From Gemmatimonadaceae bacterium (GTDB lineage Bacteria; Gemmatimonadota; Gemmatimonadetes; Gemmatimonadales; Gemmatimonadaceae), in the NCBI GenBank assembly GCA_020853635.1, contig JADYYN010000040.1, positions 1 to 52,963 on the forward strand: 52,963 nucleotides of DNA, given 5' to 3'. The first letter of the stretch is position 1. Every line of letters begins with the position of its first letter. A program made the translations under genes and the position numbers. The notes under the pieces were generated by a model. That model was not told the origin of the DNA and searched no databases. It worked only from the letters and a program-made list of their open reading frames with translations. Of this stretch, positions 2,672-20,339 are shown one piece after another.

Positions 2672-2720
2672 GACCAACACGACACCCACTGACGACTCTT
2701 TGACTCTTATGAGGAATCCA

Positions 2721-4210: not shown

Positions 4211-7200
4211 CTAGCGGCCGGTCATCCACACGACCTTGAGGATCACATCGCCCTCGCGAGGAACCGACGGGCCGTTCCACAGCCGCTGGCGATCGTTCAC
4301 CACCAGATACACGAACGACAGCGGCGCGAACTCCCACTGTGCACGCGCATTGAGCGCACCGCGACCCGCCACCGTGTTGTACTGATAGAAGGCCGCGAGC
4401 TGCAGCCGCGGAGACCAAGCGAGCCGCAACTCGGGCGCGATGAGCTGCGTGGTGAGCGTGGTGTCGTTCACCCCGACCGCACGCAAGCGATTGATGGTGT
4501 AGTCGACGTTCATCGCGATGCGCGGACTCGGTGCCCAGCGCGCCGTGCCGACGACCTCCTCCATGCGCCCGTCGAAGAATCCGCCGGTGGAGACGTTCGT
4601 CGACAACACCCAAGACGCACTCTGGTCCGTGGTGCCGTACCAGCCGTAGCGCCAGTAGTCCTGTGTGCCGGCGGCGATCCCTACGCCGGGCAGGATATCG
4701 AACGCCTGCGTGGGACGCTGCAGGTGACGCTGCACGTACGGGTACCAGATCGCCCCGCTGCGATGGAGCACATCGATGTAGATGTCGACGAAGCCCTCCT
4801 GCAGGCGCAGCGTGGACGGCGTGTTGTAGAAGTACGTCACGATCGCCGGCTTGAAGAGCACGACGTCCTTTGGCCGCCAGGCGGGTTGCCACGTGCCGAC
4901 GATCGCGGGACTGCTCACAAGCACATCGTTCCGTGAGACGAAGCCCGTGCGCGGCGCATAGTCCTTGGAGACCAAGGCACCGAGGAAGCCGGTGTAGAGC
5001 CCTGGCGTATCGCGTCCGGCGAAGTAGCTCGCCGCCACGCCGGTCTTCCCGTCGATCGTCGACGTGGAGACCATGCCATTGATCTGGATCTGCTCGCCAA
5101 TGCGACCGAGTGCATCGAATGCCGTCACGACGTTCGTGCTGCCGGGCGTCACGCGACCGGGATCATCGTGCCGGATGGCGGTGAGCGCCCCCACCCGCGT
5201 GGACGCCCCGATGAACCGACTGCCGCGCAACACGCCGAACGTGCTCGCCCCATTGTCCCCCTGGGCACGCTGACGGGTCGCGAGCGCACCGAGTGAGAGC
5301 CGGGAGGATCGCAGCGCGTAGCGCGCCCCGGCATCGATGGGGATTGGCGTGCCGTCGTCCGCGAGCCCGATGCGGCGCGTGAAGAACGGCTGCAATGCAT
5401 AGCGCCCGTCGAGTCCGGTCACGCTCAACACATCGGCGTTCTCGAGGAAGAACTGCCGGCGCTCCGGGAAGAACACGGAGAACCGCTGCAGGTTCACCAC
5501 CTGCCGATCGACATCGGCCTGCGCGAAGTCGGTGCGCACGGTGAGATCCAGCGTGCTGTTGGCCCTCGGTGCCCACAACAACTCGCCGCCGGCCGCGCCC
5601 GTGGTGGTGAAGGCGCCCGCATCAGAAGTGTTCCGTCGCGATTCGCCCAGCACGAACGGTCGGTAGCGCAGTGCGGCACGACTCGGCGGCGGCTCGAGGC
5701 CGTCGACGGTGCCTGCGAACGTCAGCCGATACGAGGAGAACTGCCGCGGGAACGGTGCCCATGCGCTCGTCTCAAGTGCACGGCGTGCATTGCGCACGAA
5801 GTTCACTTCCCACTCGCCATCCCCGGGCGCATAGCGGACGGTCTGCCAGGGGATCGCGATCTCCGCGGTCCATCCGCTGTCGCTCACCTGCGTGCGCACG
5901 GTCCACTGTCCATCCCAGTTCTCGTTCTGTGTATCGCCACCATCGAACGCCTGCACGTCGCGCTGCGACCCGTACGGGGTGACCGAGAACTGGTACGCGG
6001 TGCGTTTGTCTCCGAGCGGGCCGAACGTGACGGAGAAGTTCTCGTTCTCTGAGAAGTCGAACTCACGGCGGAGGTCTCGGACGCGCAGGCCCGTGCGCGC
6101 GTCGGGGTCACGCATGTAGGCGGCGACGTACAGGTGCCGCTCATCGAACAACACGCGCACCTCGGTCGGGTAGCGAACACTCGGTGCGTAGTCCTGTCGC
6201 ACTTGGTGGAACGCGCTGGCGATCGAGGCGGTGGACCAGCTGGCCTCGTCGAGCCTGCCGTCGATGCGAATGGGTGACGCCGTACGCGCCGCGCGAAGGC
6301 GAGGCCGCGGTGCCGTGAACGGATCCGCAGTCGTGTCTGCAGGCGCGGAACTCGGCGCGGCGGCCGCCGCACCGATCCAGCGACGCCACAGCATCACCAC
6401 GCCATCGGGCGCCGTGAACGCCGCATCACGGTCTGCGACATAGCGTGCATAGATCGGCGCTGCCGCGGCGATCAGCGCGCGGTCCGCTGCCGACTCCGGC
6501 GCGCCCTTCGGCACCGCATACACGAACGACGAGAGTGAGGGTGTCTCGCCTTCACGCGCCGGGAACTTGCGGAACGTCTCTACCCGGCGGAAGTCACGCG
6601 CGACAAACACGCCGCTGGAGTCCTGGGACTCGCCCGCCCGAACGAAGAAGTCCACGGCTTCGTCGGGATAACCGAACAGATAGCCGTACCCGCGCCAGCG
6701 CGGCGAGCGCGGTGCGCGCTCGACGGCATCGAGTACTGCGTCCACCGGAGTCTCCACGCGCACTCCGATCGATGACCAGAACTCCGGACGCGCGGCAATG
6801 GCGCGCGCGAGGGCATCCCTGTGCACGGCGTACACCGCCGTCACGCGATAGCGCGAGCTGTCTGCGCGAGTGTACGTAGCGGCGAACTCGGCGACGTGGA
6901 ACGACACCGGCCCACAGCGGAGCGCCGCGGTCGCTGACCGCACGCTCGCGATGGAGTCCAGCGCCACACGATCCAAGTCTGGTGCAACAGTGAGCGTGAT
7001 GCTCAAGAAGTCGGTACTGACAGGCTTGAGTCCGCCGCCGAGCGTGTAGAGCGCCTCGCCATCGCCCGCGTCGCGCAGCAGGCGCTCGGCGATGGCGCGT
7101 TCACGTGCAGCGAGGGAGGAGAGATCGAAGCACCCAGCCGACGGCGTTGCAGCTCGCGCGGGTGTCTGTGCAGACGTTTGCGCTGACACCGACGCGGGGG

Positions 7201-7681
7201 CGAACGCGAGGCCCAACACCAAGAGCCAGAGCGCACCTCGCTTGGCGACATTCGAGCCGCGCATGGTCGATCCGGCCGCTGCACGGCAGCTGAGGTTCCG
7301 AAGGTGCGCTGCGACGATCAAGGTGGCACCGACCACCACGAACGGAAGTTCGCCGCGCTCATCGAGGACCCACTCAAGGCGAGAGATCACGAGGGTGGCG
7401 AGCCCCAGTGCGAAGAGCACAAACGGGAGCGCCCGTCGGTGCTGCCGCCAACCCGCGCCGACGATGGCGATGCCGCCGAGCACCGAACTGATCGCGAGCA
7501 AGCCCCATTCGATCCATGGCGACTCGAGCCAAGGGAGCACCACAGCCGGCAGCAGGAGCACGAGCAAAGCCGGGCCGAGACAGTGGATTGCGCACAGCAC
7601 CGCCACGGCGATGCCGCTGACGTCGAGTCGACGCTTGAGCGAGTCTTCAATGCGTTGCTGGTCGAGCGATGCGGCGGACAC
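4211..7681 (-). CDS. MerC-like membrane domain fused in frame to secreted DUF5916 (CBM9-like + barrel) protein
   Basis: 1,156 codons open from a GTG at 7681 (GGGAG four bases upstream on the minus strand). Residues 1-139 are a complete MerC-like protein: the CAIHCLGPALL signature near residue 35, four hydrophobic helices, and the family's usual end HLRNLSCR. The stop codon expected there is absent. Residue 140 is a Met (codon at 7264) that begins a classic signal peptide (ALWLLVLGLAFAPASVSAQ). Then come an unrecognised domain (about 170-430, containing YLFGYPDEAVDFFV), a CBM9-like domain (RLDEASWSTAS, ENFSVTFG) and the DUF5916 barrel (hallmark FFPERRQFFLENADV). MerC proteins move mercuric or other metal ions; DUF5916 proteins are predicted outer-membrane proteins of unknown role. 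The two may be made as one chain, or the second from its own start at 7264 (1,017 residues). Confidence 0.8.
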   Translation of the reverse strand: MSAASLDQQRIEDSLKRRLDVSGIAVAVLCAIHCLGPALLVLLLPAVVLPWLESPWIEWGLLAISSVLGGIAIVGAGWRQHRRALPFVLFALGLATLVISRLEWVLDERGELPFVVVGATLIVAAHLRNLSCRAAAGSTMRGSNVAKRGALWLLVLGLAFAPASVSAQTSAQTPARAATPSAGCFDLSSLAARERAIAERLLRDAGDGEALYTLGGGLKPVSTDFLSITLTVAPDLDRVALDSIASVRSATAALRCGPVSFHVAEFAATYTRADSSRYRVTAVYAVHRDALARAIAARPEFWSSIGVRVETPVDAVLDAVERAPRSPRWRGYGYLFGYPDEAVDFFVRAGESQDSSGVFVARDFRRVETFRKFPAREGETPSLSSFVYAVPKGAPESAADRALIAAAAPIYARYVADRDAAFTAPDGVVMLWRRWIGAAAAAPSSAPADTTADPFTAPRPRLRAARTASPIRIDGRLDEASWSTASIASAFHQVRQDYAPSVRYPTEVRVLFDERHLYVAAYMRDPDARTGLRVRDLRREFDFSENENFSVTFGPLGDKRTAYQFSVTPYGSQRDVQAFDGGDTQNENWDGQWTVRTQVSDSGWTAEIAIPWQTVRYAPGDGEWEVNFVRNARRALETSAWAPFPRQFSSYRLTFAGTVDGLEPPPSRAALRYRPFVLGESRRNTSDAGAFTTTGAAGGELLWAPRANSTLDLTVRTDFAQADVDRQVVNLQRFSVFFPERRQFFLENADVLSVTGLDGRYALQPFFTRRIGLADDGTPIPIDAGARYALRSSRLSLGALATRQRAQGDNGASTFGVLRGSRFIGASTRVGALTAIRHDDPGRVTPGSTNVVTAFDALGRIGEQIQINGMVSTSTIDGKTGVAASYFAGRDTPGLYTGFLGALVSKDYAPRTGFVSRNDVLVSSPAIVGTWQPAWRPKDVVLFKPAIVTYFYNTPSTLRLQEGFVDIYIDVLHRSGAIWYPYVQRHLQRPTQAFDILPGVGIAAGTQDYWRYGWYGTTDQSASWVLSTNVSTGGFFDGRMEEVVGTARWAPSPRIAMNVDYTINRLRAVGVNDTTLTTQLIAPELRLAWSPRLQLAAFYQYNTVAGRGALNARAQWEFAPLSFVYLVVNDRQRLWNGPSVPREGDVILKVVWMTGR

Positions 7682-7789
7682 GGGACTCCCGGATTCATAT
7701 GATTGGCTCCGTCAGTCTACGGGTGTCTCGACCTGCGGTTCGGGGGCGCTGGCTGGACGGTTGCTCTGCACCACCGAACGGGCGACTCG

Positions 7790-7844
7790 AGCCGTTGAAC
7801 GGCAGCGCACGACCGTTCAACGGGCTGAGGCGGCCGTTGCCTGC
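7790..7844 (+). promoter_or_regulatory. Three LytTR-type boxes upstream of the kinase gene
   Basis: Boxes at 7790-7802 (AGCCGTTGAACGG), 7811-7823 (GACCGTTCAACGG) and 7832-7844 (GGCCGTTGCCTGC). Their GTT cores fall at 7794, 7815 and 7836, exactly 21 bp apart, two helical turns. LytTR regulators are known to bind imperfect 9-bp direct repeats with a GTT core separated by about 12 bp. The gap is shared with the divergent MerC/DUF5916 gene (start 7681), so either or both sides may be controlled. Outside the boxes the 226-base gap (7682-7907) shows nothing else clear. Confidence 0.7.
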
Positions 7845-7907
7845 GAGCACGTGGAGCCCCGTCGCTGGGACGCTAACTTTCGCAGGTCGCTCCCCTGCCG
7901 CCCGCCC

Positions 7908-9776
7908 ATGCTCGCACCCAACCTGAACTCCATCATCCATCTCGCCGGATTCGGCGCGGGTATCGCCCTCTACGGGCTGCTCGCGGTGATGACGCGCTCG
8001 GGAGCGCGGGGCGGAGAGCGGCTGTCGTTCGCGACGGCACTCCTCGGGCTCGCGTGGAATGCGGGTGCACTGGTGGTGTTCGGCACCGAGGACCTCGGCG
8101 CCGCCGCGGCCCCGGCAGGCGTGTCGTTCATCGCGTATTCGGCGCTGGGTTTCCTCCCGGCCGTGGCCGTGCATGCCGCGGTCGGATATCACGGGCTCGG
8201 TACGCGCCGCCTGTTGGTGGGCGCGGCTTACGGGCTGGCGGCGGTGGCGACGCTCTGGCAGCTCGGCGCGCTCGTTCAGGCAGCCGAGGTGCCCGCGCGC
8301 AACGCGATGCTGATGCTCACGGTGGGCAACCTCACTCTCGTCGCTGCGCTGGCTCTCAGCGCGCGCGGCGACCGCGGCCCACGCGACGTCTCGTCCGTGG
8401 CGCTTGCTGTGTTCGCGGTGATGGCACTGCACCTGAGCCATCACGCCGACGCCCCGGAGTCGTGGGTGGTCGCGGTACTCGGGCACCATGCCTCGCTGCC
8501 GTTGGCGCTCGCGATCCTGTATCAGGACTATCGGTTCGCATTGGCCGATGTGTTCCTCAAGCGCGCGCTCACCATCCTCGCGGTGATCATCCTCGCCGCG
8601 GGTCTGTTGTGGGGCATCGGTGTGCCGTGGATCTCTCCCGGCCCGTCGCAGACAGTGAATCCCGCGGGACTGTTCGTGGTGCTGCTGCTCTGGGTCGCGA
8701 CGGCGCTGGCGACGCCCTGGATCGCCGCGCGGAGTTCCGACATCGTCGATCGCCTGCTACTGCGCCGTCAGGCCCCGCGCGCCATGGCGGAGTCGCTGGC
8801 GGTGCAGGTGAGCACCATCGAAACGCCGGACGAGGTGTTGGACGCAGGCTGTCGTGCGGTCGCGGACGCGTTGGCCGCGGGACGTGTCGCGTGGCGCGAG
8901 ATCACCGAGTGGCCCGAGCGCACGGCGATGATCCTGCACGATCGCGGACAGTCGGCCACCGTCCACATCCCGACGACGACCGGGCCGGATTGGGCGATCG
9001 ACGTGCGCGAGCTCGCGGGCGGGCGGCGCCTGCTGTCCGGCGACGGCACCATGCTCGAAGCGGCCGCGATCGTGCTCGGGCGACGGATCGACGCGCTCCG
9101 GCTGGCGCGTGAGCGGCTCTCGCGTGACCTGCGCGAGGAGTCGTTGCTGCGACTGTCGTCGGAGGCGGAGTTGCAGGCGTTGCGCGCGCAGTTGAACCCG
9201 CACTTCCTGTTCAACGCGCTCACCACGCTCGGCTTCCTGATGACCAGTGCGCCCGCGCGAGCGCAGGAGACCTTGTACAGTCTCACCGCGCTGCTGCGCG
9301 CCGTGCTCACGCGCACCGCTCGTGAGCAGAACACGCTGCACGAGGAGATGTCGCTGGTGCGCGACTATCTGTCGATCGAGCAGGCGCGGTTCGAGGAGCG
9401 CTTGAGCGTGCATCTCGACATGCCCGAGGCGGTCGCGAACGCGCGCGTGCCATCCCTGTTGCTGCAGCCGCTGGTGGAGAACGCGATCAAGCACGGGATC
9501 TCGCCCATCGCCCGCGGTGGTCGCGTGGAAGTGACGGCACAGTTGGACGGTGCGCAACTCGTGCTCGCCGTGCGGGACACCGGACGCGGCATCGCGGCGC
9601 GCGATGCGATCACGGGGTTCGGAGTGGGCTTGAGCAATCTCGAACGGCGGTTGGAACGGCTCTATGGAAGCGAGGCGACGTTGACGTTCGAGAGTGTCCC
9701 GGATCAGGGGACTACCGTGGTGGTGCGCTTGCCGTTCCGCGCGGCGGGTCCCGAAGCGTTGCGGGCCGCCTCATGA
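7908..9776 (+). CDS. LytS/YehU-type membrane sensor histidine kinase
   Basis: 622 residues. The N-terminal ~270 residues hold about eight membrane helices; a soluble GAF-like stretch follows (about 290-400), then the LytS-family histidine block LRAQLNPHFLFNAL with His432 as phospho-acceptor, and a HATPase_c domain (N-box PLVENAIKHG with Asn525, then DTGRGI and GFGVGLSNLERRL). The frame is open much further upstream, but that part overlaps the divergent gene and is low-complexity shadow; the ATG at 7908 gives the first hydrophobic helix. Its TGA overlaps the next gene's ATG (ATGA), so kinase and regulator are translationally coupled. The many-helix sensor resembles 7TM-type input domains; the signal is unknown, probably in the membrane or periplasm. 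Confidence 0.92.
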   Translation: MLAPNLNSIIHLAGFGAGIALYGLLAVMTRSGARGGERLSFATALLGLAWNAGALVVFGTEDLGAAAAPAGVSFIAYSALGFLPAVAVHAAVGYHGLGTRRLLVGAAYGLAAVATLWQLGALVQAAEVPARNAMLMLTVGNLTLVAALALSARGDRGPRDVSSVALAVFAVMALHLSHHADAPESWVVAVLGHHASLPLALAILYQDYRFALADVFLKRALTILAVIILAAGLLWGIGVPWISPGPSQTVNPAGLFVVLLLWVATALATPWIAARSSDIVDRLLLRRQAPRAMAESLAVQVSTIETPDEVLDAGCRAVADALAAGRVAWREITEWPERTAMILHDRGQSATVHIPTTTGPDWAIDVRELAGGRRLLSGDGTMLEAAAIVLGRRIDALRLARERLSRDLREESLLRLSSEAELQALRAQLNPHFLFNALTTLGFLMTSAPARAQETLYSLTALLRAVLTRTAREQNTLHEEMSLVRDYLSIEQARFEERLSVHLDMPEAVANARVPSLLLQPLVENAIKHGISPIARGGRVEVTAQLDGAQLVLAVRDTGRGIAARDAITGFGVGLSNLERRLERLYGSEATLTFESVPDQGTTVVVRLPFRAAGPEALRAAS

Positions 9777-10591
9777 CGCGCCGTCCCACGCCGCAGTCGA
9801 CCGCCGAGGTGCCCCCGCTGCGTGTGGTCATCGCCGACGACGAACGTCCCGCGCGCTCGTTCCTCGCCGCGATGCTGCGCTCACACGAGGAGATCGTGGT
9901 GGTCGGCGAGGCCGCGGACGGTGCCGCGGCGGTGCAGTTGATCGAGCGCGAGCGACCCGACATCGCGTTCCTCGACCTGCAGATGCCGGAGCTCGACGGC
10001 CTGGAAGTGGTGCGACTGCTCCGCCGCGACGCGACCCCGCTCGTGATCTTCGTGACGGCGCATGATCAGTACGCCGTGCGCGCGTTCGAGGCGCATGCGG
10101 TGGACTATCTGCTCAAGCCCGTGGAACCCACCCGAATCACCGAAGCGCTGGCGCGTGCGCAGGAACGACTCGAGCGGCGTGAGTCGAAGCCCGAAGTCCG
10201 TGCGGCGCGACTCGCGCGCGCGGCGGATGCCATCGAGGGACCGGCGGCGAGCGCGCCGCTGCGGCGGATCCCGGCACGCCATCACGAGGATGTGGTGCTC
10301 GTGCCTGTGGAGCACGTGGCGCTGCTCGAGGCCGACGGCGAGACGGTGCGGTTGGTGACCGCGAACAACGAGCGGTTCACGGTCCCGGCGCGGCTGAAGG
10401 ACCTCGAGGAGCGGCTCGACCCCGTGCGCTTCATCCGCTTATCGCGCGCTCAGGTGTGCAATGCGGAGATGATCGTGCGGGTGAGCCCGCAGCCGGGCGG
10501 GCTGCTGCAGCTCACGCTGTCCAACGGACTCCGGCTCACGGCGTCGCGGTTGCGGTCGCGGGAGCTGAGGGAGTCACTGCTCGCGCTCTGA
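9773..10591 (+). CDS. LytTR-family response regulator
   Basis: 272 residues. The receiver domain (about 14-130) has the acidic pocket IADDE, phospho-acceptor Asp68 in FLDLQMPELDG, VTAHDQ and the conserved Lys in LLKPVEP. An Arg/Ala-rich linker leads to a C-terminal LytTR DNA-binding domain (about 165-272: VEHVALLEADGETVRLVT, FIRLSRAQVCNAEMI). The LytTR fold binds pairs of direct repeats with a GTT core, and such repeats with 21-bp spacing are present before the kinase gene, right after this gene and before the ABC operon. It overlaps the kinase gene by four bases. It is very likely the protein that reads those boxes, which would include control of its own operon. Confidence 0.93.
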   Translation: MTRRPTPQSTAEVPPLRVVIADDERPARSFLAAMLRSHEEIVVVGEAADGAAAVQLIERERPDIAFLDLQMPELDGLEVVRLLRRDATPLVIFVTAHDQYAVRAFEAHAVDYLLKPVEPTRITEALARAQERLERRESKPEVRAARLARAADAIEGPAASAPLRRIPARHHEDVVLVPVEHVALLEADGETVRLVTANNERFTVPARLKDLEERLDPVRFIRLSRAQVCNAEMIVRVSPQPGGLLQLTLSNGLRLTASRLRSRELRESLLAL

Positions 10592-10602
10592 CCACCCGGC
10601 GC

Positions 10603-10636
10603 GACCATTCGACGGGTTGAATCGACCGTTCGCCGG
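10603..10636 (+). promoter_or_regulatory. Pair of LytTR-type boxes upstream of the TonB receptor gene
   Basis: Boxes GACCATTCGACGG (10603-10615) and GACCGTTCGCCGG (10624-10636) start exactly 21 bp apart. They lie 12 bases after the response-regulator stop and about 66 bases before the receptor ATG, as expected for an activator site. The first box has ATT in place of the GTT core. A separate TCGTTCGAGG at 10661 is out of phase and probably not part of the site. Confidence 0.7.
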
Positions 10637-10702
10637 TCTCTGCGGTCGCCCGATGCGTATTCGTTCGAGGTTGCGGGGCCGTTTCCCTCAACCGAACGCC
10701 TC

Positions 10703-12949
10703 ATGTACCGTCCGTTGCTCCGTCTGGCGAGCCGTGCGCTCACCGTGCTCGCCTTCATCTCTGCTCCACTCTCCGCCCAGAGCGCTAGCACCCCCACTGT
10801 CTCCGGACGTGTGCTCGACGCCGCGAATACCGCGATCGCGGGCGCCGTGATCACCGTCGCTGACGTCGGCGGGCGCCAGCAGTCCGTGCGCTCGAGCGCG
10901 GAAGGTACGTTCACACTGCGCGTCCCCGGGCGCGGTGTCTACACGCTGTCCGTCGTCGCGATCGGTCATGTGCGCCATGCGGAGACCGTCGACGTCGGCG
11001 CGGCCGGACGCGAACTGACCATCCGGCTCGATCGCGTGAAGCGACTCTCACCCGTGGCGGTGGTCGGCACCGCGGTCGTCCCGTCGACCGCGACCGCCGA
11101 GCAGTCCACGCCGACGTCGGTGCTCGGCGCGGACCAGATCGCGCGCGAGCAGGTCGCGTTCTCGCAGGAGATCCTGCGCAAGATGCCCGGCGTATACCGG
11201 GCGGAGTTCAATCAGGGCATCATCTCCGGCGACATCGGCATCCGCGGCTTCAACGCCGAGAGCGATATCGCCAGCACTCGACTGCTCATCGACGGGATCC
11301 CGTCGAACCTCAACAGCGGTGTGGGTGAGATGAATGCCATCTTCCCGCTCGAGATCGGACGCATCGAGGTCGTGCGCGGCACCAGCGACGCGCGCTTCGG
11401 ACAGTTCAATCTCGCCGGCAACGTGCAGCTCTCCACGCGCGAAGGCGGCAACCACCTCACCTCGCGACTGACCACCGGCTCCTTCGGCACCAACGAAGCG
11501 CAGCTCCTCGCGGCGGTGTCACGGCGTGGCTTCTCGCAGACGCTGTTCGGTGGCTTCCGGAAGAGCGACGGCTACCGCGACAACTCCGCGCTCGACAAGT
11601 GGAGTGCGAGCGGCAAGTGGTCGTATGCGCCCACCGACTCCCGTTGGCGCGTGGCGCTCATCGTGCGACAGGCGGCACTCGACACGGATGCGCCGGGCTA
11701 TCTCACGCGCGACACCGCGCGCAGCACCCCGCGGGTCTCTCCGGCCTACAGCGCCACCGACGGCGGCACCATCGACCACCGCCACACGAGTCTGCACCTC
11801 GACGGCCCGCTCGGCAGCGCGACCTGGTCGCTGAAGGCCTACGACCAGCGGTTCGAACGGACGCGGTACGTGCGGTTCACGGCGGCCGGCGCGCAGCAGG
11901 AGCGCGTGGAGGATGAGACCCAGCGCGGCGCGATTGCGCAGCTCACGTGGCGGCCGTCGGTGCTGGGCTCGCGCGACGCGGTGCTGAGCGCGGGACTCGA
12001 CGTGCAGGACCAGGACAACATCCAGCAGCGCTTCCGCACGGTCGACCGCGTGCGGCAGACCACGCTGCGCGATTTCGACTTCACGCTCAAGAACCACGGT
12101 GGCTTCGTCCAGCTCGCCGCCGACGCGACGTCGCGCCTCCGACTCACCGCCGCACTCCGCGGCGATGCATTCGAGGGCGACTTCACCAACGTGCTCACCG
12201 CGGCCGAGTCGCCGATCCTCGACCTGGGATTCATCGCGCAGCCGAAGTTCGGCGCGGTGTTCCAAATCTCCGACGCACTCAGCGCGTACGCGAACCACGG
12301 CCGCAGCTTCCAGATCGGCACCGGGCCGGCGGCGTACGGTACCGCACCGCTCTCCTGGTCGAAGAACGACGGCACGGAACTCGGCATGACCACGCGCCCG
12401 AGCACCAACTCAACACTGCGCTTCGGTGTGTGGCAGCAGATCGCATCGGATGAGGTGCGACTCAAGTTCGACAACTCCGGTGACTCGGAGAACATCGGAC
12501 GGACGCGTCGGCGCGGCATCGACATCGAAGGGACCTGGCAGGCGACCTCGCGCATCGGGTTCTGGGCGACCGGGACGACGCAGCGCGCGATCCTCGTCGA
12601 GCCCGGCTTGTTGAACCCCACCGCGAAGGGCAAGCGCCTCAACCATGTGCCCGACTGGACCGCGAAGTTCGGTGTGGATGTCATCCCGGCCTTTGGGTGG
12701 AACGTGGGCGTGTGGGCGTATGCGCAGGGCGAGTACCATCTCACCGACGTCAACGACCGCGGCACGTTCGGCGCGCAGCAGACGGTCAACCTCGACGTCT
12801 CGTATCGCTGGCGCGGCGTCGCGCTCGGTCTTGGTGCGACCAACCTGCTGGACCGTTACAACGAGTACGTGTGGTGGGACGGCGCGCAGACGCTGCACTC
12901 GCCGGCCACGGCGCGTGCGCTCTTCCTTTCGGTGACGCTCGACCGATGA
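10703..12949 (+). CDS. TonB-dependent outer-membrane receptor with carboxypeptidase-regulatory-like N-terminus
   Basis: 748 residues. Signal peptide ending near ISAPLSAQS; an Ig-like carboxypeptidase-regulatory-type domain (about 30-110: VSGRVLDAANTAIAGAVITV); a plug domain (about 135-240: KMPGVYRAEFNQG, IRGFNAESD, RLLIDGIPSN, IEVVRGTSDARFGQFNLAG); then a 22-strand-type barrel with TonB-box-III-like IDIEGTWQ and GLGATNLLDRYNEYVWW near the end. Single-component TonB receptors of this shape import siderophores, cobalamin or metal complexes. It follows the two-component genes and carries its own LytTR box pair. The stop overlaps the next ATG (ATGA). Substrate unknown; the neighbouring CobW GTPase, MerC-like domain and ABC genes hint at a metal, but that is inference. 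Confidence 0.9.
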   Translation: MYRPLLRLASRALTVLAFISAPLSAQSASTPTVSGRVLDAANTAIAGAVITVADVGGRQQSVRSSAEGTFTLRVPGRGVYTLSVVAIGHVRHAETVDVGAAGRELTIRLDRVKRLSPVAVVGTAVVPSTATAEQSTPTSVLGADQIAREQVAFSQEILRKMPGVYRAEFNQGIISGDIGIRGFNAESDIASTRLLIDGIPSNLNSGVGEMNAIFPLEIGRIEVVRGTSDARFGQFNLAGNVQLSTREGGNHLTSRLTTGSFGTNEAQLLAAVSRRGFSQTLFGGFRKSDGYRDNSALDKWSASGKWSYAPTDSRWRVALIVRQAALDTDAPGYLTRDTARSTPRVSPAYSATDGGTIDHRHTSLHLDGPLGSATWSLKAYDQRFERTRYVRFTAAGAQQERVEDETQRGAIAQLTWRPSVLGSRDAVLSAGLDVQDQDNIQQRFRTVDRVRQTTLRDFDFTLKNHGGFVQLAADATSRLRLTAALRGDAFEGDFTNVLTAAESPILDLGFIAQPKFGAVFQISDALSAYANHGRSFQIGTGPAAYGTAPLSWSKNDGTELGMTTRPSTNSTLRFGVWQQIASDEVRLKFDNSGDSENIGRTRRRGIDIEGTWQATSRIGFWATGTTQRAILVEPGLLNPTAKGKRLNHVPDWTAKFGVDVIPAFGWNVGVWAYAQGEYHLTDVNDRGTFGAQQTVNLDVSYRWRGVALGLGATNLLDRYNEYVWWDGAQTLHSPATARALFLSVTLDR

Positions 12950-14121
12950 GCACGGCCACGACCTCACAGCGCATCGAGAGCATCGATGCGCTGCGAGGGC
13001 TCATCATCGTGCTGATGGTGGCGGACCACGCGCGGGACTACGCGGTCGGCTTTCCCGCTGTGACTGATCCGATGACGCTCGACAGCACGGCGCCGCTGAT
13101 ATTCTGGTTGCGCTGTCTCGCGCATTTCTGCGCGCCCGTGTTCACGCTGCTGGCCGGTGTGTCCGCCGGGTTCCAGTCGGTACGCATGGAGCGCGACGCA
13201 CTCGCCAAGCACCTCGCCGTCCGCGGGCTCGTGCTCATCGCGCTCGAGTTCACGATCGTCCACCTCTCGTGGACGTTCTCGCTGGTCTGGCCGCGCTTCT
13301 ACATGCAGGTCATCTGGGCGCTCGGCCTCTCGATGCTGTTCCTCGCCGCGACGCTCCGGTTGCCCGTGATCGCGCGCGTCATCCTCGGCGTCGCAGTCGC
13401 GGCGGGGCATCATCTCGTGGAGCCGTTCAGCCCGCAGGAGCCACTCTGGCTCAGGTGGGTCTGGGCGATCCTGCACGACCGCCAAGTGCTCGCACTGCCG
13501 TTCGGCTACGAAGTGCGCACGTCGTATCCTGTGCTGCCGATGCTCGGACTCATCCTGCTCGGCGATGCCCTCGGTCGCTGGTTCATGCGCGCCACACCGG
13601 AGCTCCGAACGCGGGTGCTCGCGCGGGCGGGTGCGATGCTTATCCTCGTGTTCATCGCGCTGCGGTGGACGAACGTCTACGGCGATCCGACGCCCGCGGA
13701 ACAGGACGTGGCCTGGGGGCGCCGGGTGATGTCGATGCTCAACGTCACCAAATACCCGATGTCGCTCAGCTTCCAGTTGATGACCGTCGGGCCCGCCTTG
13801 CTGCTGCTTGCGTGGTGGCAACGCGGGGTCCCGAAGCTGTTCGCGCCGTTCGTCCTGTTCGGGAAGGTGCCGATGTTCCTCTATATCGCGCACTTGTACT
13901 TGCTGCACATCGGAGCCGTTCTTGGGGCGCTGCTCATGGGGTATGCGTGGGCCGACTTCGATTTCCGGGCACGGATCACCGGTCTGCCGGCCGGGGTGGG
14001 GTTCCCGGTGGAGTGGACCATCCCGGTGACGGTCGCGGTGGTACTCGCGCTCTACCCCGCGGCGCGCTGGTACGCTGCGCAGCGCGCGTCGGGGCGGTAT
14101 CGCTGGATGCGGTACGTTTGA
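12946..14121 (+). CDS. DUF1624 / HGSNAT-like multi-pass membrane acyltransferase-family protein
   Basis: 391 residues, about ten membrane helices. The family signature is at the start: RIESIDALRGLIIVLMVADH followed by CAPVFTLLAGVSAG, and later NVTKYPMSLSFQLMTVGP and FGKVPMFLYIAHLYLLH. These match the bacterial DUF1624 group related to the catalytic domain of heparan-alpha-glucosaminide N-acetyltransferase, which moves an acetyl group across the membrane; the bacterial substrate is generally unknown. The ATG overlaps the TonB-receptor stop, so the two are translationally coupled, suggesting a joint role such as modification of an imported compound. The long frame upstream of 12946 is a shadow of the receptor gene. 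Confidence 0.85.
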   Translation: MSTATTSQRIESIDALRGLIIVLMVADHARDYAVGFPAVTDPMTLDSTAPLIFWLRCLAHFCAPVFTLLAGVSAGFQSVRMERDALAKHLAVRGLVLIALEFTIVHLSWTFSLVWPRFYMQVIWALGLSMLFLAATLRLPVIARVILGVAVAAGHHLVEPFSPQEPLWLRWVWAILHDRQVLALPFGYEVRTSYPVLPMLGLILLGDALGRWFMRATPELRTRVLARAGAMLILVFIALRWTNVYGDPTPAEQDVAWGRRVMSMLNVTKYPMSLSFQLMTVGPALLLLAWWQRGVPKLFAPFVLFGKVPMFLYIAHLYLLHIGAVLGALLMGYAWADFDFRARITGLPAGVGFPVEWTIPVTVAVVLALYPAARWYAAQRASGRYRWMRYV

Positions 14122-14239
14122 GCGCGGAATCCCCTCCCGGGGCGAGCGAGAACTGCACATCTTCTTGCGCAGAGACTCTTGCTGCCGTGCTCGAACGACG
14201 CGGCGCAGGTCCGCGAACTCACACCGACCCGAGGCCGTG

Positions 14240-14914
14240 TTGTCACACGAAAAGGCCCCCGGAGCACTCAGCCTCCAGGACATTCTGTCGTTCGGATATC
14301 TGTACCTGCTGGCTCTCGGGATCGTGAGCGACTCGATCTACTACGCGTTGCTCGACATCAGTTTCATGGATTACGCCGACGTGCTGGACGTGCTCTTGAC
14401 ACCGTTGCGCTATCTGGAGCGTGAACCGCGATTCACGGTGATCATGATCCTGATCACCGGAGGGTCGTACGTGAGCATCCGGTGGCTTCAGCAACGTCAC
14501 ACACGACGTGCTCGTTCGGATGAGGCATATCGCGAACGCCTCGGCGAAGACGGACTCAAGGAAGTCCCTCATCGGCTGCGGATACTGAAATTCCTGATTC
14601 CCGCGATCGGCGTGTTCGCGGGGTACGTCGGTTTTGCGACAGGCTCCGGCGTGCGGATCAGAGAGGGTCTGCGCGAGGGAACACTGCGCTCTGATCACCG
14701 GGTTGTGTTCGTCAACGGAGAGGAGGCCGAAGTCCGGATCGTGGGACTGACGGGGAACTACCTCCTGTATGTCCCTGCGAACGGACGGACCGTTCTCGTG
14801 GCTCCGGTGCAAGCCGTCGTGCGTAGCATCGAGCACCTGCAGCGCGAACAGGGTGAGCGCGCACGATCTGACGACCCGCCGCCGGCCGCCCACGACCGTT
14901 CACCCGATCGATAA
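14240..14914 (+). CDS. Unrecognised three-helix membrane protein
   Basis: About 224 residues from a TTG at 14240 (GAGG at 14231-14234, five-base spacer); GTG at 14237 or an ATG further up are alternatives, but the extra residues are Arg-rich and uncharacteristic. Predicted helices: LSFGYLYLLALGIVSDSIYY, FTVIMILITGGSYVSIRWL and KFLIPAIGVFAGYVGFATG. The C-terminal ~70 residues form a soluble domain (VVFVNGEEAEVRIVGLTGNY, then LLYVPANGRTVLVAP) that looks like a small beta domain, ending in a charged tail. Codon use is visibly less GC-rich than the neighbours, hinting at separate ancestry. The last codons overlap LytTR boxes for the downstream ABC operon. I do not recognise the family. Confidence 0.65.
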   Translation: MSHEKAPGALSLQDILSFGYLYLLALGIVSDSIYYALLDISFMDYADVLDVLLTPLRYLEREPRFTVIMILITGGSYVSIRWLQQRHTRRARSDEAYRERLGEDGLKEVPHRLRILKFLIPAIGVFAGYVGFATGSGVRIREGLREGTLRSDHRVVFVNGEEAEVRIVGLTGNYLLYVPANGRTVLVAPVQAVVRSIEHLQREQGERARSDDPPPAAHDRSPDR

Positions 14915-14927
14915 GACCGTTCGACGG
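14894..14927 (+). promoter_or_regulatory. Pair of LytTR-type boxes upstream of the ABC operon
   Basis: GACCGTTCACCCG (14894-14906) and GACCGTTCGACGG (14915-14927), starting exactly 21 bp apart; the eight-base core GACCGTTC is identical in both. They straddle the stop codon of the preceding gene (TAA 14912-14914) and end 43 bases before the ATPase ATG. This is the best-conserved pair of the three sets. Confidence 0.75.
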
Positions 14928-14970
14928 CTGCGACGTCCACTAGAGGCGACTGTCGGGGAAGATTGGGCGG

Positions 14971-15693
14971 ATGGCCACCTCCTCCCCTCTGCTCAGCGCT
15001 GAAGGCCTCACCAAGCGCTACGGCGACACGCTCGCCCTCGACGCCCTCGACCTCTCGATCGCGCCGGGCGAGGTCTACTGCCTGCTCGGCGCCAACGGTG
15101 CGGGCAAGTCCACCACGATCAACTGCTTCCTCGACTTCGTCCGTCCGGACGGCGGGGTCGCGAAGATCGGTGGGCAGGTCGTCGCCCAACATCCGCTCGA
15201 GACGAAGAAGCGCCTCGCGTACATCCCGGAGACCGTGATGCTCTACGGCAACCTCTCCGGGCTCGAAAACCTCGAATACTTCGCGACCCTCGCGACCGGC
15301 GCGCGTCCCGCGACCGAGGAGCTCGTCGCGCATCTCATCACGGCGGGACTCCGCGACGACCAGATCCGCCAGCGCGTCGGCGGCTATTCCAAGGGCATGC
15401 GCCAGAAGGTCGGGATCGCGATCGCACTCGCCAAGCGCGCCGACGTGCTCTTGCTCGACGAGCCCACCTCCGGCCTCGACCCGAAGGCCTCCAACGAGTT
15501 CCATCGCCTGCTCGGTCTGCTGCGTGAGCGTGGCGCCGCCGTGCTCATGGCGACACACGATCTCTTCCGCGCGAAGGAATCGGGGACGCGCATCGGCATC
15601 ATGAAAGCGGGCCGCAAGGTCGCCGAGCTGCGCGCGGATGAGATCGGCCACGCCGATCTGGAGAAGCTGTACCTCACCCACATGCACGACTGA
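14971..15693 (+). CDS. ABC transporter ATP-binding protein
   Basis: 240 residues. Walker A GANGAGKSTT, Q-loop region RLAYIPETVMLYGNL, signature YSKGMRQKVGIA, Walker B VLLLDEPTSGLDP and H-loop MATHD are all present, so it should be an active ATPase. The type is the single-domain ATPase that works with ABC-2/NosY-like permeases, and two such permeases follow, eight bases and then three bases apart. Together they form an export or protein-maturation type transporter rather than a binding-protein importer, since no substrate-binding protein gene is present. LytTR boxes lie just upstream. Confidence 0.92.
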   Translation: MATSSPLLSAEGLTKRYGDTLALDALDLSIAPGEVYCLLGANGAGKSTTINCFLDFVRPDGGVAKIGGQVVAQHPLETKKRLAYIPETVMLYGNLSGLENLEYFATLATGARPATEELVAHLITAGLRDDQIRQRVGGYSKGMRQKVGIAIALAKRADVLLLDEPTSGLDPKASNEFHRLLGLLRERGAAVLMATHDLFRAKESGTRIGIMKAGRKVAELRADEIGHADLEKLYLTHMHD

Positions 15694-15700
15694 GGCGCCG

Positions 15701-17110
15701 ATGATCCGCGAGATCGCTCGGAAGGAGTTCCGTGAACTGACCCGCGACGGTCGCTTCCGCCTCTCGGCGGGCATCGTCGGTGGCTTGCTCCTGGTAGCGT
15801 CGCTCGCCGGCTTCACTGCGTGGCGCGAGCAGGCCGCACAGCGTGACGCCGCACAGAACTCCATGCAGGCCCTCTGGTTCGGCCAACCCGCCAAGAACCC
15901 GCACTCGGCGGCGCACTACGGGCTGTGGGCGTTCAAGCCGCAGTTGCCGCTCTCGTTCATCGACCGCGGCGTCGATCCCTACGTGGGCACCGCGAGTTGG
16001 CTCGAGGCGCATCGCCAGAACGAGTTCCGCTTCCGTCCGGCGATGGACGCCACGGCGGCCCAGCGCTTCGGCGATTGGACCGCCGCCGCAGTGCTGCAGC
16101 ATCTCGTCCCCCTGCTCATCATCGTGCTCGCATTCGGCGCCTTCGCCGGCGAGCGCGAACGCGGCACACTGCGCCAACTCGCCTCACTCGGTGTGCCGAC
16201 GCGGGCCCTCATGACCGGCAAGGCGCTGGGCGTGGCCGCAGCGCTGGCGTTGTTGCTCATCCCGGTCGCGGTGGTGGGCTCCGCACTGGTGCTCAACGCG
16301 ATGGGCGCCGATGGTCTGCTGCGGTTGGCAGCGATGACCGCGGTGTACCTCGCGTACTTCGGCGTCGTACTCGGCGCGACCCTGCTGGTCTCGGCGAAGG
16401 CACGCACGGCGCGCGCCGCACTCGTGGTGCTTCTGGCAGCCTGGGCCGTGAACGGGATCGTCGCGCCGCGCCTTGCGGCGGACGTCGCGCGCATGGCACA
16501 CCCCACGCCCACTGCGCGGGAGTTCACCGCCGAGGTGCAGACGGCGCTGGCGAACGGGATCGACGGGCACTCGCCAGCCAGTGCACGTGGCAAGACGCTG
16601 GAGGACTCGCTGCTCAAGGCGTACAACGTGGCCAAGGTCGAGGAACTGCCGTTCAACTTCAACGGCTTCGCCATGCAGCGCGGCGAGGAACACGGGAACG
16701 AAGTGTTCGATCACTACTTCGACGAGCTCTGGTCCACCTACGCCGCGCAGGACCGCAGCCAGCTGTTGGGTGCGGTCGCGTCACCGCTCATCGCAGTGCG
16801 GTTCCTCTCCATGGGCATCGCGGGCACGGACGCGGCACAGCATCGCGCGTTCGCGACCAGCGCGGAGAACTACCGCCGCGAGCTCAACAAGAAGATGAAC
16901 GACGCCATCGCGGAGAATGCGGGCGCCGGCCAGGCGTTCACGTATCAGGCCGATGAGACGCTCTGGCGTTCGCTGGAACCGTTCACATACGAAGCGCCGG
17001 GGCTGGGCAGTGTGTGGCGCACACATCTCGTGAGCGCGGTGGTGTTGCTGCTGTGGATGGGACTCGTCGCGGTGCTCACGCGGCGCTCGACCTCGCTCGC
17101 GGTGGTCTGA
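15701..17110 (+). CDS. ABC-2 type permease, DUF3526-like, first subunit
   Basis: 469 residues from the ATG at 15701; the frame continues upstream into the ATPase gene but that part is shadow. Pattern: one N-terminal helix (IVGGLLLVASLAGFTAW), a ~130-residue extracytoplasmic segment, then a helix cluster (VPLLIIVLAFGAFAGERERGTL and following), another long extracytoplasmic segment (about 260-435) and a last helix (VVLLLWMGLVAVLT). The GERERGTLRQLAS motif after the second helix is the hallmark of NosY/ABC-2 permeases. It pairs with the next gene, which has the same layout, so the transporter is likely a heterodimer of permeases on an ATPase dimer. Substrate unknown. Confidence 0.85.
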   Translation: MIREIARKEFRELTRDGRFRLSAGIVGGLLLVASLAGFTAWREQAAQRDAAQNSMQALWFGQPAKNPHSAAHYGLWAFKPQLPLSFIDRGVDPYVGTASWLEAHRQNEFRFRPAMDATAAQRFGDWTAAAVLQHLVPLLIIVLAFGAFAGERERGTLRQLASLGVPTRALMTGKALGVAAALALLLIPVAVVGSALVLNAMGADGLLRLAAMTAVYLAYFGVVLGATLLVSAKARTARAALVVLLAAWAVNGIVAPRLAADVARMAHPTPTAREFTAEVQTALANGIDGHSPASARGKTLEDSLLKAYNVAKVEELPFNFNGFAMQRGEEHGNEVFDHYFDELWSTYAAQDRSQLLGAVASPLIAVRFLSMGIAGTDAAQHRAFATSAENYRRELNKKMNDAIAENAGAGQAFTYQADETLWRSLEPFTYEAPGLGSVWRTHLVSAVVLLLWMGLVAVLTRRSTSLAVV

Positions 17111-17113
17111 GCG

Positions 17114-18550
17114 ATGCGTCTTTCGTTGTGGTCGTTCGAGTGGCGCTTGCTGCGCCGCGAACCGCTCATCGTGGTGCTGACCGCGCTGCTCGTGGTGCTG
17201 GGCGCTTACGCCAGCGTGACGGGGTCGCGCTTCGTGCGGGCGCAGGAACAGACCATCGAGGAGCTCGCGCTCGAGGAACGGTCGCGTCTCGATTCGCTTC
17301 GGACGCTCATGGCACGACTCGAGCGCGGGGAGTCGCTCGCGGTCTCGCCGTTCGCCGACCCACGGAGTCCCGCCGTCGCGGGGCGTCAGGTGGCGAGCCG
17401 GTACACCGTACTCCCGCCGGGTCCGCTGGCGCCGCTGGCGATCGGCCAGCGCGACGTGCAGCCGTTCTGGGCGCTGATCTCCACGCGCACCAAGCAGACC
17501 TTCTTCGTCAACGACGAGATCGACAATCCGGTCGCCCTGCTGGCGGGTCGCATCGACTTGGCGTTCGTGGTGCTCGTGCTCTACCCGCTGTTCATCCTCG
17601 CACTGACGTTCGACGTGGTGGCCGGGGAGCGCGAGCGTGGGACGTTGGGTCTCGTGCTCTCGCAGCCCGTCGCGCCGTCGCAGGTGCTCACGACCAAGTT
17701 GCTGGTGCGCGCGCTCGTCGCGGTGCTGCTCACCGTGGCACTCTCGGTCGCGGCGGCCCTCGCCACGGGCGTTGCATTGTCGGATCCGACGGTGTTGACT
17801 CGCTTTGCGTTGTGGTGCGGCATGCTGCTGCTCTACGGTGCGTTCTGGTTCGCGGCGGCTTTGGCCGTCAACGCACGTCGCCTCAGCTCGGCCGCGAGTG
17901 CGGTCACGCTACTCGGCGTGTGGCTCGTTGTCGTGGTGATCCTGCCCGCTGTGTCGGCGGCGATCATCTCGGTGACGTACCCCGCGCCGTCGCGCCTTGC
18001 GCTCACGACGCGTCTGCGCGAAGCCACCGACGCGGCAGCACAGCAGCGGCAGGATGCGCTCGCGGCATTCATGGCCGAGCACCCGACCTACGCGGCGGAT
18101 GCCGGCGCGGGGGCGCCCGATCCGAACGTGATGGCGGTCGCGCTGCAGGATGCCGCCGAACGCATGATGGCGCCGCGGTATGCTGAGTTCGATGCCGCGC
18201 TCGACGCACAGCGTGTGGCCGCTGACCGACTGCGTCTCATGAGCCCCGCGCTGGTGCTACAGGGAGCGCTGCTCGACCTCGCGGGCTCTGGTGAAGCACG
18301 GTTCCGCGACTACGAACGCCAGTTCGACCGCTTCCACAGCGAATGGCGCGCATTCTTCAATGACCGACTGCTGGGGCGTCAGGCGCTCACCGCGCAGGAC
18401 TACGCCAACATCCCGTCGTTCACGTATCGCGAACCGACGGTCGGCGCACTGGTGTCGCGTCTGCTGCCCGGTGTGCTCCTGTTGCTCGTACTCACCGTCG
18501 CACTGATCTGGAACGCTCGCGCACGGATGCATCGCGCGACGCTCGCCTGA
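17114..18550 (+). CDS. ABC-2 type permease, DUF3526-like, second subunit
   Basis: 478 residues with the same architecture as the previous gene: N-terminal helix (LIVVLTALLVVLGAYASV), extracytoplasmic segment, helix cluster with the motif AGERERGTLGLVLSQP, a second long extracytoplasmic part, and a final helix (LLPGVLLLLVLTVALIW). The segment LMSPALVLQGALLDLAGSGE before the last helix is typical of DUF3526 permeases. Starts three bases after the preceding stop. In other bacteria such permease pairs often stand beside TonB receptors, as they do here; their cargo is not established. Confidence 0.87.
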   Translation: MRLSLWSFEWRLLRREPLIVVLTALLVVLGAYASVTGSRFVRAQEQTIEELALEERSRLDSLRTLMARLERGESLAVSPFADPRSPAVAGRQVASRYTVLPPGPLAPLAIGQRDVQPFWALISTRTKQTFFVNDEIDNPVALLAGRIDLAFVVLVLYPLFILALTFDVVAGERERGTLGLVLSQPVAPSQVLTTKLLVRALVAVLLTVALSVAAALATGVALSDPTVLTRFALWCGMLLLYGAFWFAAALAVNARRLSSAASAVTLLGVWLVVVVILPAVSAAIISVTYPAPSRLALTTRLREATDAAAQQRQDALAAFMAEHPTYAADAGAGAPDPNVMAVALQDAAERMMAPRYAEFDAALDAQRVAADRLRLMSPALVLQGALLDLAGSGEARFRDYERQFDRFHSEWRAFFNDRLLGRQALTAQDYANIPSFTYREPTVGALVSRLLPGVLLLLVLTVALIWNARARMHRATLA

Positions 18551-18570: not shown

Positions 18571-19137
18571 ATGTCGTCCCTCGTCTCTCCGCGCGCGGCC
18601 GCCGCGTTGCTCGACTTCCAGATGTGGTGCTGGGGGCAGGACATCGTGCGTCCGGAGGGGAACCTGCTCCTGGCGCACGCTGAGCGCTGGCGCCCTGACG
18701 GTGGCCGTGGCAGCTCGCACTATCGCGTGCGACTCGATGCGACGCGCGCACTGGTCCTCTGGGGATTCGCCGTCGCGATCGAATCACCGGACGCCCCGTA
18801 CGTGGTGCTGCGTCGCCATGGCTTCACGCCGCGCGTGCTGGACCGCGAGCGCGTGAAGTGGCCCATCGCACGGCCCGAGGCGTTGCCACGCGGTGATCGT
18901 CCGCGCTCGGCCGCAGAGGCTGCGCTGGTGCGTGACGCACTCGCGGCGGCTGTCGGCTGGATCGCGGCGTACGAACGCGGCGTGCGTGATGCGGTGGGTG
19001 CGGCCTGGCGACAGGAATGTCTCCGCCGCCGTCCGCGCGAACTCCGACGCAAGCTCCGCTGCGCACCCGATGCACTCGTGGAGGCCTGGGATGACCTGGC
19101 CGCGACGACTCTTCCTTCCCTTCTTCCGGTCTCCTGA
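18571..19137 (+). CDS. Conserved-looking cytoplasmic protein of unknown function
   Basis: 188 residues, no signal peptide or membrane helix. The N-terminal half is Trp-rich ([19 protein letters not shown]) and predicted alpha/beta; the C-terminal half is basic and helical ([18 protein letters not shown]). It is squeezed between the permease gene (20 bases) and the CobW gene (2 bases), with no ribosome site of its own visible, so it is translated from the same message. The close link to CobW suggests a partner or client of the metal GTPase, but no metal-binding motif is obvious beyond three scattered cysteines. Family not recognised. A single GTT box (AACCGTTCG) just upstream has no 21-bp partner. 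Confidence 0.7.
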
Positions 19138-19139
19138 CG

Positions 19140-20339
19140 ATGTCCACTCCCACGACCCGCCGACTGCCTGTCACGGTCCTCAGCGGCTTCCTCGGCGCGG
19201 GCAAGACCACGCTGCTCAATCATGTGCTCGCCAACCGCGAGGGTCGCCGCGTGGCGGTGATCGTGAACGACATGAGCGAGGTGAACATCGACGCGCAACT
19301 CGTGCGCGAGGGCGGCGCGTCGCTCGACCGAGTGGACGAGCGCCTGGTGGAGATGAGCAACGGGTGCATCTGCTGCACGCTGCGCGAGGACCTGATGGTC
19401 GAGGTGCGACGCCTGGCCGACGAAGGGCGCTTCGACTACCTGCTCATCGAGAGCACGGGGATCGGTGAGCCCATGCCGGTGGCGGCGACCTTCTCGTTCC
19501 GTGACGAAGAGGGGCGTGCGCTCGAGGACGTGGCGCAGCTCGATACCATGCTGACCGTGGTCGATGCCTCGGCGTTCCGTCGTGATCTCGATCAGGCTGA
19601 TGCGCTCGCCGAGCGCGGGATCGCGGCGGGTGAAGGCGACGAACGCACCATCGCGGATCTGCTGATCGACCAGGTGGAGTTCGCGAACGTGATCGTGCTC
19701 AACAAGACCGACCTCGTAACGCCCGAGGCGTTGCGCGAACTGGAGGCGATCATCGCGCACCTGAACCCGGACGCGCGCATCGTGCGCGCCGAGCGCGGGC
19801 GCGTGGCGCTCACCAACATCTTCGACACCGGGCTGTACGACGTGGAGAAGGCCGCCGAGATGCCCGGCTGGATCAAGGAGCTCCGTGGGGAACACATCCC
19901 CGAGACGTTGGAGTACGGCATCTCGAGTTTCGTCTACAAAGCGCCGCGTCCCTTCCATCCCAGCCGACTCATGCCGGCGGTGGTGCGTGGCTTCCCCGGC
20001 GTGGTGCGGTCCAAGGGCTGGCTGTGGTTGGCGACGCGACCGGACATCGCGGGCAACTGGTCACTCGCCGGTGGATCGCTCGACATCACGCCGGCCGGTT
20101 TCTGGGCGGAAGGTGCCACGCGCCAGCAGACGCTGGTGTTCATCGGCATCGGCATGGACGAGCCGGCGATCAGGGCCGCACTCGACGAGGCGTTGCTGAC
20201 GGACGAGGAGTTCGCGGCGGGGCCCGCGGTGTGGTCGGTGTTCGCGGATCCGTTCCCGGCGTGGCCGGTGATCGAGGCCGATCACGCGCACGAGGACGGC
20301 GAGGCGGATGACGAGGGGGCGGATCGGCCGTGGTCGTGA
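19140..20339 (+). CDS. CobW/COG0523-family GTP-dependent metal chaperone
   Basis: 399 residues. Walker [10 protein letters not shown] (residues 16-24), the metal-binding CICC motif at 76-79 in NGCICCTLR, Walker B-like [12 protein letters not shown] guanine specificity motif, then a CobW_C domain (from about 260). The C-terminus is acidic with a few histidines ([15 protein letters not shown]), a common metal-sensing tail. COG0523 proteins hand zinc, cobalt or other metals to client enzymes using GTP; many are induced by zinc shortage. Subgroup cannot be assigned by eye. It is the last gene of the LytTR-box ABC operon, which gives that operon a metal theme. Confidence 0.92.

Follow-up and report, generated by a model that had tools for sequence, protein, structure and literature searches.

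Paired boxes 21 bp apart as predicted operators of a LytTR regulator encoded beside a LytS-type sensor kinase in Gemmatimonadota and Nitrospirales

In a 52,963-nucleotide stretch of DNA from a Gemmatimonadaceae bacterium (assembly GCA_020853635.1, contig JADYYN010000040.1; the whole stretch is called the window), similar short boxes recur ahead of a LytS-class histidine kinase gene, a TonB-dependent receptor gene and an ATP-binding cassette (ABC) operon, with a LytTR response regulator gene lying among them. Which protein reads these boxes, and to what effect? We conclude that, very probably, they are the operators of this LytTR regulator and it activates the three transcription units. What can be read from sequence is the boxes and their phasing, the promoter geometry at the kinase gene of the window and in related genomes, the conservation of the boxes with the regulator and a background level where the regulator is absent.

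The window contains seven boxes in three sets (Table 1). As originally predicted, box starts within each set lie exactly 21 bp apart, which we found at all seven coordinates. The boxes had also been said to share one pattern: four of the seven match GACCGTTCRMCSG exactly, and the others depart from it by one (10603), three (7790) or five (7832) mismatches. Boxes 7790 and 7811 are near-palindromic (CCGTTCAACGG) and strand is therefore ambiguous at set 1; the reverse boxes at 7755-7783 extend this set leftwards, so that five boxes face the divergent open reading frame (ORF) 4211-7681 on the minus strand. All three sites had been described as intergenic; box 14894 lies within the last codons of ORF 14165-14914 (stop codon at 14912-14914), and hence set 3 is not wholly intergenic. 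The claim that the sole LytTR regulator in the window is encoded between the first two sites stands, as only one of the six LytTR matches in the genome is on this contig.

The pattern GACCGTTC-N13-GACCGTTC, with up to three mismatches, occurs eight times in the window compared with 1.2 expected, and none of 100 shuffles reached eight; single GACCGTTC matches (one mismatch allowed) are not enriched (71 versus 76 expected). The signal is the phased pair, not the single box. LytTR operators consist of 9-bp direct repeats, mostly with 12-bp spacers and often placed 10 bp before the -35 element (PMC6193735), and the boxes of the window and of its relatives have this format of 9-bp direct repeats with a spacer of about 12 bp. 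A scan of the 4.17-Mb draft genome (295 contigs, 84% complete; the window is its contig C40) found GACCGTTC pairs with zero or one mismatch only at 14894 and 10603. The 11-mer pair CCRTTCRMCSG-N10-CCRTTCRMCSG was found without mismatch only at 10605 and 14896, and with one mismatch only at 7792; pair frequency elsewhere in the genome had been proposed as a check, and strict pairs (zero or one mismatch) are confined to the three sites. With up to three mismatches, the same 11-mer pair has 32 matches in the genome compared with three for the reversed pattern. A triple-box look-alike (G000:C14:3716-3768, two and three mismatches) was set aside on a check for ORFs, as it overlaps one of 427 aa and is probably coding.

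A regulator search of GTDB genomes gave 174 relatives, of which the best 80 were kept and the 16 closest (L080-L095, 45-66% identity; L and G numbers denote loci and genomes) were analysed. For tests upstream of the kinase, L083, L086 and L185 were excluded because they lack a kinase start; L174/L187 and L082 are duplicates of L080, L081 and L179, and the kinase start of L184 is approximate. Using a matrix built from the seven window boxes only and 30 spacings, 21 bp was best in eight of 23 kinase upstream regions and any other spacing in at most two (binomial p = 4.8e-7, which treats the regions as independent, though related ones are not). Using matrices from the boxes of other clades, with the tested clade omitted, 21 bp was best in 14 of the 23 regions and any other spacing again in at most two, the training boxes having been chosen as 21-bp pairs and the clades set by hand; the regions in which 21 bp was best occur in nine of the 11 hand-defined groups. 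Conservation of the boxes upstream of orthologues, another check proposed with the original prediction, thus holds for the kinases with either matrix.

Across 26 loci and the window, a matrix partly trained on these same loci found 50 pairs at 21 bp and between zero and nine at each of 21 other spacings. In Nitrospirales, eight of nine loci (L093 misses) have a pair with a GTT/ATT core at 21 bp, located roughly 100-120 bp upstream of the aligned start of the kinase, as detected with a looser pattern shaped to those sites. The neighbourhoods of other related regulators (12 loci) contain one pair at 21 bp and zero to three at other spacings. Pairs at 21 bp accompany the regulator in Gemmatimonadota, in Nitrospirales and in one contig labelled Acidobacteria (L085).

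Sites with a -10 at a fixed distance follow a published activator layout with a 12-bp spacer, 10 bp to the -35 and then the -10 (PMC6193735), to which an optional third box adds 21 bp in the loci compared here; L090 has the published geometry (CCCGTTCAT-10 bp-TTGCCG-17 bp-TATACT). A TANNNT -10 element is located 32-34 or 53-55 nt downstream of the second 9-mer at 14 of 21 sites from the relatives and the window (mean 0.9 and maximum five in 5000 shuffles of the downstream sequence), these sites having been picked after seeing the promoter alignment, in which the L089 and L093 rows are out of register. Omitted were near-duplicate Nitrospira sites (L089, L091-L095), L178 3709 and L080 7998, and the minus-strand pairs of L085, L181 and L183, as well as low-scoring pairs, were not used. 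On sliding the offset, zero or one site matched at most steps, and six, five, nine and four did at -20, -2, +1 and +19, offsets that overlap or nearly overlap the true -10 positions.

The kinase sensor is present in 14 of 395 sampled Gemmatimonadota genomes, as well as in Nitrospirales contigs; the permease is found in 61 of the 395 (E 1e-20) and the receptor in nine (E 1e-60), eight of which also have the permease. For comparison we used 27 transporter or receptor neighbourhoods (361 kb) from 21 genomes, some only 81-91% complete, in none of which did the kinase query that matches those 14 genomes find a match. This set has six pairs at 21 bp and zero to six at other spacings, that is, background. 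Upstream of its receptor genes is a different hyphenated palindrome, in all six readable cases (a seventh is truncated at the edge of its contig): TGATA-N12-TATCA occurs as one exact copy each in G092, G181, G275, G343 and G356, always just before the receptor (L257-L261). None of the three other genomes searched has an exact copy: G255 has one with a single change, and the remaining two, G000 and G166, are those that combine the receptor with the kinase. The same receptor gene thus presents a predicted operator swap, in which the putative LytTR boxes are replaced by TGATA-N12-TATCA in kinase-less genomes, a replacement that was not part of the original prediction. No DNA-binding family was found beside the receptor in kinase-less genomes among ten proteins tested. 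A Ser/Thr protein kinase gene adjoins the receptor in three of four kinase-less loci tested (L257-L259). The acyltransferase (54-56% identity) is at five of seven kinase-less receptor loci, so this pair is conserved; a CobW relative (55-60% identity) is near the ABC genes in four of 20 kinase-less ABC loci, and a weaker one (32-34%) in four more, with a MerC-like gene between the ABC genes and the CobW relative in L243.

Where the kinase is present, the genes around it differ among lineages. L080, L081 (truncated where its contig ends) and L184 have the genes for kinase, regulator and ABC system side by side; L180 has a receptor orthologue (52% identity) inserted between the regulator and the ABC permease genes, and the ABC genes of L084 are divergent. 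In both L081 (10836) and L180 (8547) the ABC gene has a box pair ahead of it. Other TonB receptors are near the regulator in L175, L177 and L179, with boxes ahead of those of L175 and L179, and the Nitrospirales contig L088 has pairs at 11508 and 12383, near an Flp-pilin-like ORF (a label read from its sequence, with no family match) and before a secretin/TadE pair. Because other lineages pair it with other TonB receptors or with Flp/Tad-pilus-like genes, the regulator appears to keep its box but change its targets. The LytTR regulon circuit of the original prediction is supported, at sequence level, by the boxes at orthologues, the rarity of strict pairs elsewhere in the genome and the background in genomes without a detected kinase; its operator is not new and its gene set varies by lineage. 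In L088, 11508-12416 suggests that this regulator family may control Tad pili there.

We propose that the membrane kinase would sense an envelope signal and phosphorylate the regulator, which would then bind CCRTTCRNCGG-like boxes, in twos or threes spaced by 21 bp (roughly two turns of the helix), and, placed just upstream of the -35, recruit a sigma-70-type polymerase. It would activate its own operon, in a positive feedback, as well as the paired TonB receptor and acyltransferase genes and the ABC-DUF3526-CobW operon. Several observations weigh against this. Nine of the 23 kinase upstream regions favour another spacing in the leave-clade-out test, L175/L176 have no pair ahead of the kinase, and L080, despite sharing the ABC-CobW gene order, lacks an above-threshold pair upstream of its ABC gene. 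Among the three window sites only that of the kinase has a -10 at the expected place, those of the receptor and the ABC genes being without TANNNT, and a sigma-70 consensus scan of 7600-15100 gave one match (0.6 expected), at 7675-7703, away from the predicted promoters. The empty kinase search in 21 genomes proves nothing by itself, and a 21-bp pair of fair score (20.5) lies within an ABC gene of a kinase-less genome (L252).

We infer binding by the regulator, and activation rather than repression, after weighing three other explanations. The regulator could instead repress, occupying the boxes and blocking the promoters until a signal releases it, as exemplified by the LytTR repressor CoxC (PMC11347149), and third boxes can indeed approach the -35 region. 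The CoxC operator, however, overlaps the -35, whereas most LytTR regulators bind upstream and activate (PMC11347149), and the -10 elements found here have the spacing of an activator site, in some cases with 21 bp added; repression is in our view unlikely. Another protein could read the boxes by recognising a CCGTT-AACGG palindrome, with the LytTR neighbourhood being incidental, and the near-palindromes at 7790 and 7811 would suit this. We consider it highly improbable, given that the 21-bp pairs track the regulator in Gemmatimonadota, Nitrospirales and the Acidobacteria-labelled L085 but are no commoner than background in genomes in which the kinase was not found, and that the box form is close to the BtsR site. 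That the boxes might be an artefact of chance or of composition in a GC-rich genome would agree with the lack of enrichment of single boxes, but the pair statistics (window shuffles, genome scan and orthologue spacing tests) make this a practically negligible prospect. Activation by the LytTR regulator encoded among the boxes is the explanation that we retain.

From left to right, the locus comprises the divergent ORF, box set 1, the histidine kinase, the LytTR response regulator and box set 2, followed by the TonB receptor, the acyltransferase-like gene, an ORF without family, box set 3, the ABC ATPase, two DUF3526 permeases, a 188-aa protein and the CobW GTPase (Table 1). The kinase and regulator genes overlap at 9773-9776, and a PF06580 kinase adjoining the regulator is the arrangement of LytS/LytTR two-component systems. 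The divergent ORF has a MerC-like domain, a signal-peptide-like stretch and CBM9/DUF5916 in a single frame, and resembles two stop-less fused genes; in L081, MerC-like and DUF5916 matches are likewise divergent from the kinase. The 188-aa protein has eight Trp and no Pfam or NCBIfam match, and L080 keeps it between the permeases and CobW. Elsewhere in the window, 20-4124 encodes a TonB plug protein and then a SusD-like protein, a separate SusC/SusD-type pair.

Table 1. Coordinates of the boxes, predicted promoter elements and genes of the locus in the window.
Feature	Position	Strand	Remarks
Divergent ORF	4211..7681	-	MerC-like membrane domain in frame with CBM9/DUF5916 protein; set 1 may act on it in reverse
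Two weaker reverse-oriented boxes	7755..7783	-	3 mismatches; continue the 21-bp phase by box centre
Set 1 box 1	7790..7802	+	AGCCGTTGAACGG, near-palindrome
Set 1 box 2	7811..7823	+	GACCGTTCAACGG
Set 1 box 3	7832..7844	+	GGCCGTTGCCTGC, weak
Predicted -35 TGGAGC	7852..7857	+	10 bp past last 9-mer of set 1
Predicted -10 TAACTT	7874..7879	+	16 bp past -35
LytS-class histidine kinase	7908..9776	+	PF06580 and HATPase_c; N-terminal multi-helix membrane sensor
Response regulator	9773..10591	+	Receiver and LytTR DNA-binding domain (latter at 10271-10591)
Set 2 box 1	10603..10615	+	GACCATTCGACGG
Set 2 box 2	10624..10636	+	GACCGTTCGCCGG
TonB-dependent receptor	10703..12949	+	CarboxypepD_reg, Plug, barrel
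Membrane acyltransferase-like protein	12946..14121	+	HGSNAT_cat; pairing with receptor conserved
Membrane-protein-like ORF, family-less	14165..14914	+	Start possibly further in; box 14894 in 3' end
Set 3 box 1	14894..14906	+	GACCGTTCACCCG, within preceding ORF
Set 3 box 2	14915..14927	+	GACCGTTCGACGG
ABC ATPase	14971..15693	+	
ABC-2 permease with DUF3526	15638..17110	+	
Second ABC-2 permease with DUF3526	17114..18550	+	
188-aa protein	18571..19137	+	No family; same order in L080
CobW-type GTPase, ZigA-like	19140..20339	+	

The regulator matches PF00072 (97.4 bits, cut-off 30.2) and PF04397 (60.3 bits, cut-off 22.6), and its best NCBIfam model is BtsR, at 175.8 bits, below the cut-off of 246. 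In the window regulator and 15 orthologues (16/16), Ser or Gly is present where three aligned LytTR paralogues have His (two more paralogues are unaligned), a possible signature of this box specificity. For LytS-type membrane sensors a Pfam model exists; the sensor here matched no Pfam sensor family, only His_kinase and HATPase_c being detected at E 0.001. H179, H193 and H194 do not vary among 15 aligned orthologues, and in a larger set of 23 (the mistranslated L184 left out) each of these is kept in 22 and H11 in 21, so that the sensor histidines are near-invariant across phyla; they may bind metal or haem. The structure model has ten helical segments (mean predicted local distance difference test score, pLDDT, 72), and since most of residues 177-212 are below pLDDT 50 we claim no histidine cluster. 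Foldseek of this model against the PDB gave no match at E <=0.001, with a weak likeness to generic seven-helix bundles.

Our best guess for the substrate and signal is a metal, and we infer metal handling by the operons, zinc being the first candidate because the GTPase resembles ZigA and a MerC-like protein is linked to the operons. The CobW GTPase scores 559.4 bits against the ZigA model, below the equivalog cut-off of 600, and the receptor has ten weak matches among PDB sequences (YncD, PqqU, CntO and others), for which reason no substrate is assigned. More tentatively, and with somewhat more doubt than belief, we suggest that a new membrane sensor reads metal or haem through H11, H179, H193 and H194 and has taken over a metal-uptake system that sister genera control via an unrelated operator, TGATA-N12-TATCA. 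If true, this would be a clean natural case in which one switch has replaced another while the structural genes stayed the same. Comparing genomes that have the kinase with those that lack it offers a direct test of the exchange of control systems at the receptor gene. For this sparsely distributed sensor-regulator family, the analysis supplies a predicted operator with its promoter geometry and a short list of targets. Searches with the operator could reveal targets elsewhere, and the sensor, as a concrete candidate, could define a new class of envelope sensors for metal or haem.

No published description of the circuit was found among titles and abstract openings, a search outside which most subscription journals fall; no paper was found on DUF3526 or on LytTR with Gemmatimonas and response regulator, and none of the matches listed for any two of LytTR, TonB-dependent receptor and Gemmatimonad has such a circuit in its title. 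In zinc uptake with a ZigA-type GTPase, a TonB receptor is associated with a CobW-family GTPase; those systems use ZnuABC and Zur, whereas the window has ABC-2/DUF3526 and a predicted LytTR regulator. BtsS/BtsR (YehU/YehT) of E. coli, which responds to pyruvate, likewise pairs a LytS-type kinase with a LytTR regulator, and in the YehT-site oligonucleotide of yjiY (PMC4847170, Table 1) ACCGCTTA and ACCACTCA are exactly 21 bp apart, as here; unlike in the window, a further GCCGCTCA is 20, not 21, bp upstream. The transporter gene yjiY is the sole target of BtsR reported in PMC5431176, whereas the window circuit would have several, and the window sensor differs in having no Pfam sensor match and near-invariant histidines. 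The core of AlgZ/AlgR sites in Pseudomonas aeruginosa, CCGTTCGTC, nearly equals the window box, but AlgR sites need not be direct repeats separated by 12 bp (PMC4064291). LytTR Regulatory Systems such as HdrRM and BrsRM are autoactivating and have 9-bp repeats, mostly with a 12-bp spacer and strongly favouring a position 10 bp ahead of the -35 (PMC6193735), but their partner is a membrane inhibitor (PMC11347149) rather than a kinase. As the box and its 21-bp period match the BtsR pair, both operator and mechanism belong to a known kind; what looks new is the sensor, the operator swap and the target set, the last consisting of a TonB receptor with an acyltransferase-like partner plus an ABC operon that has DUF3526 permeases and, as its last gene, a ZigA-like GTPase.

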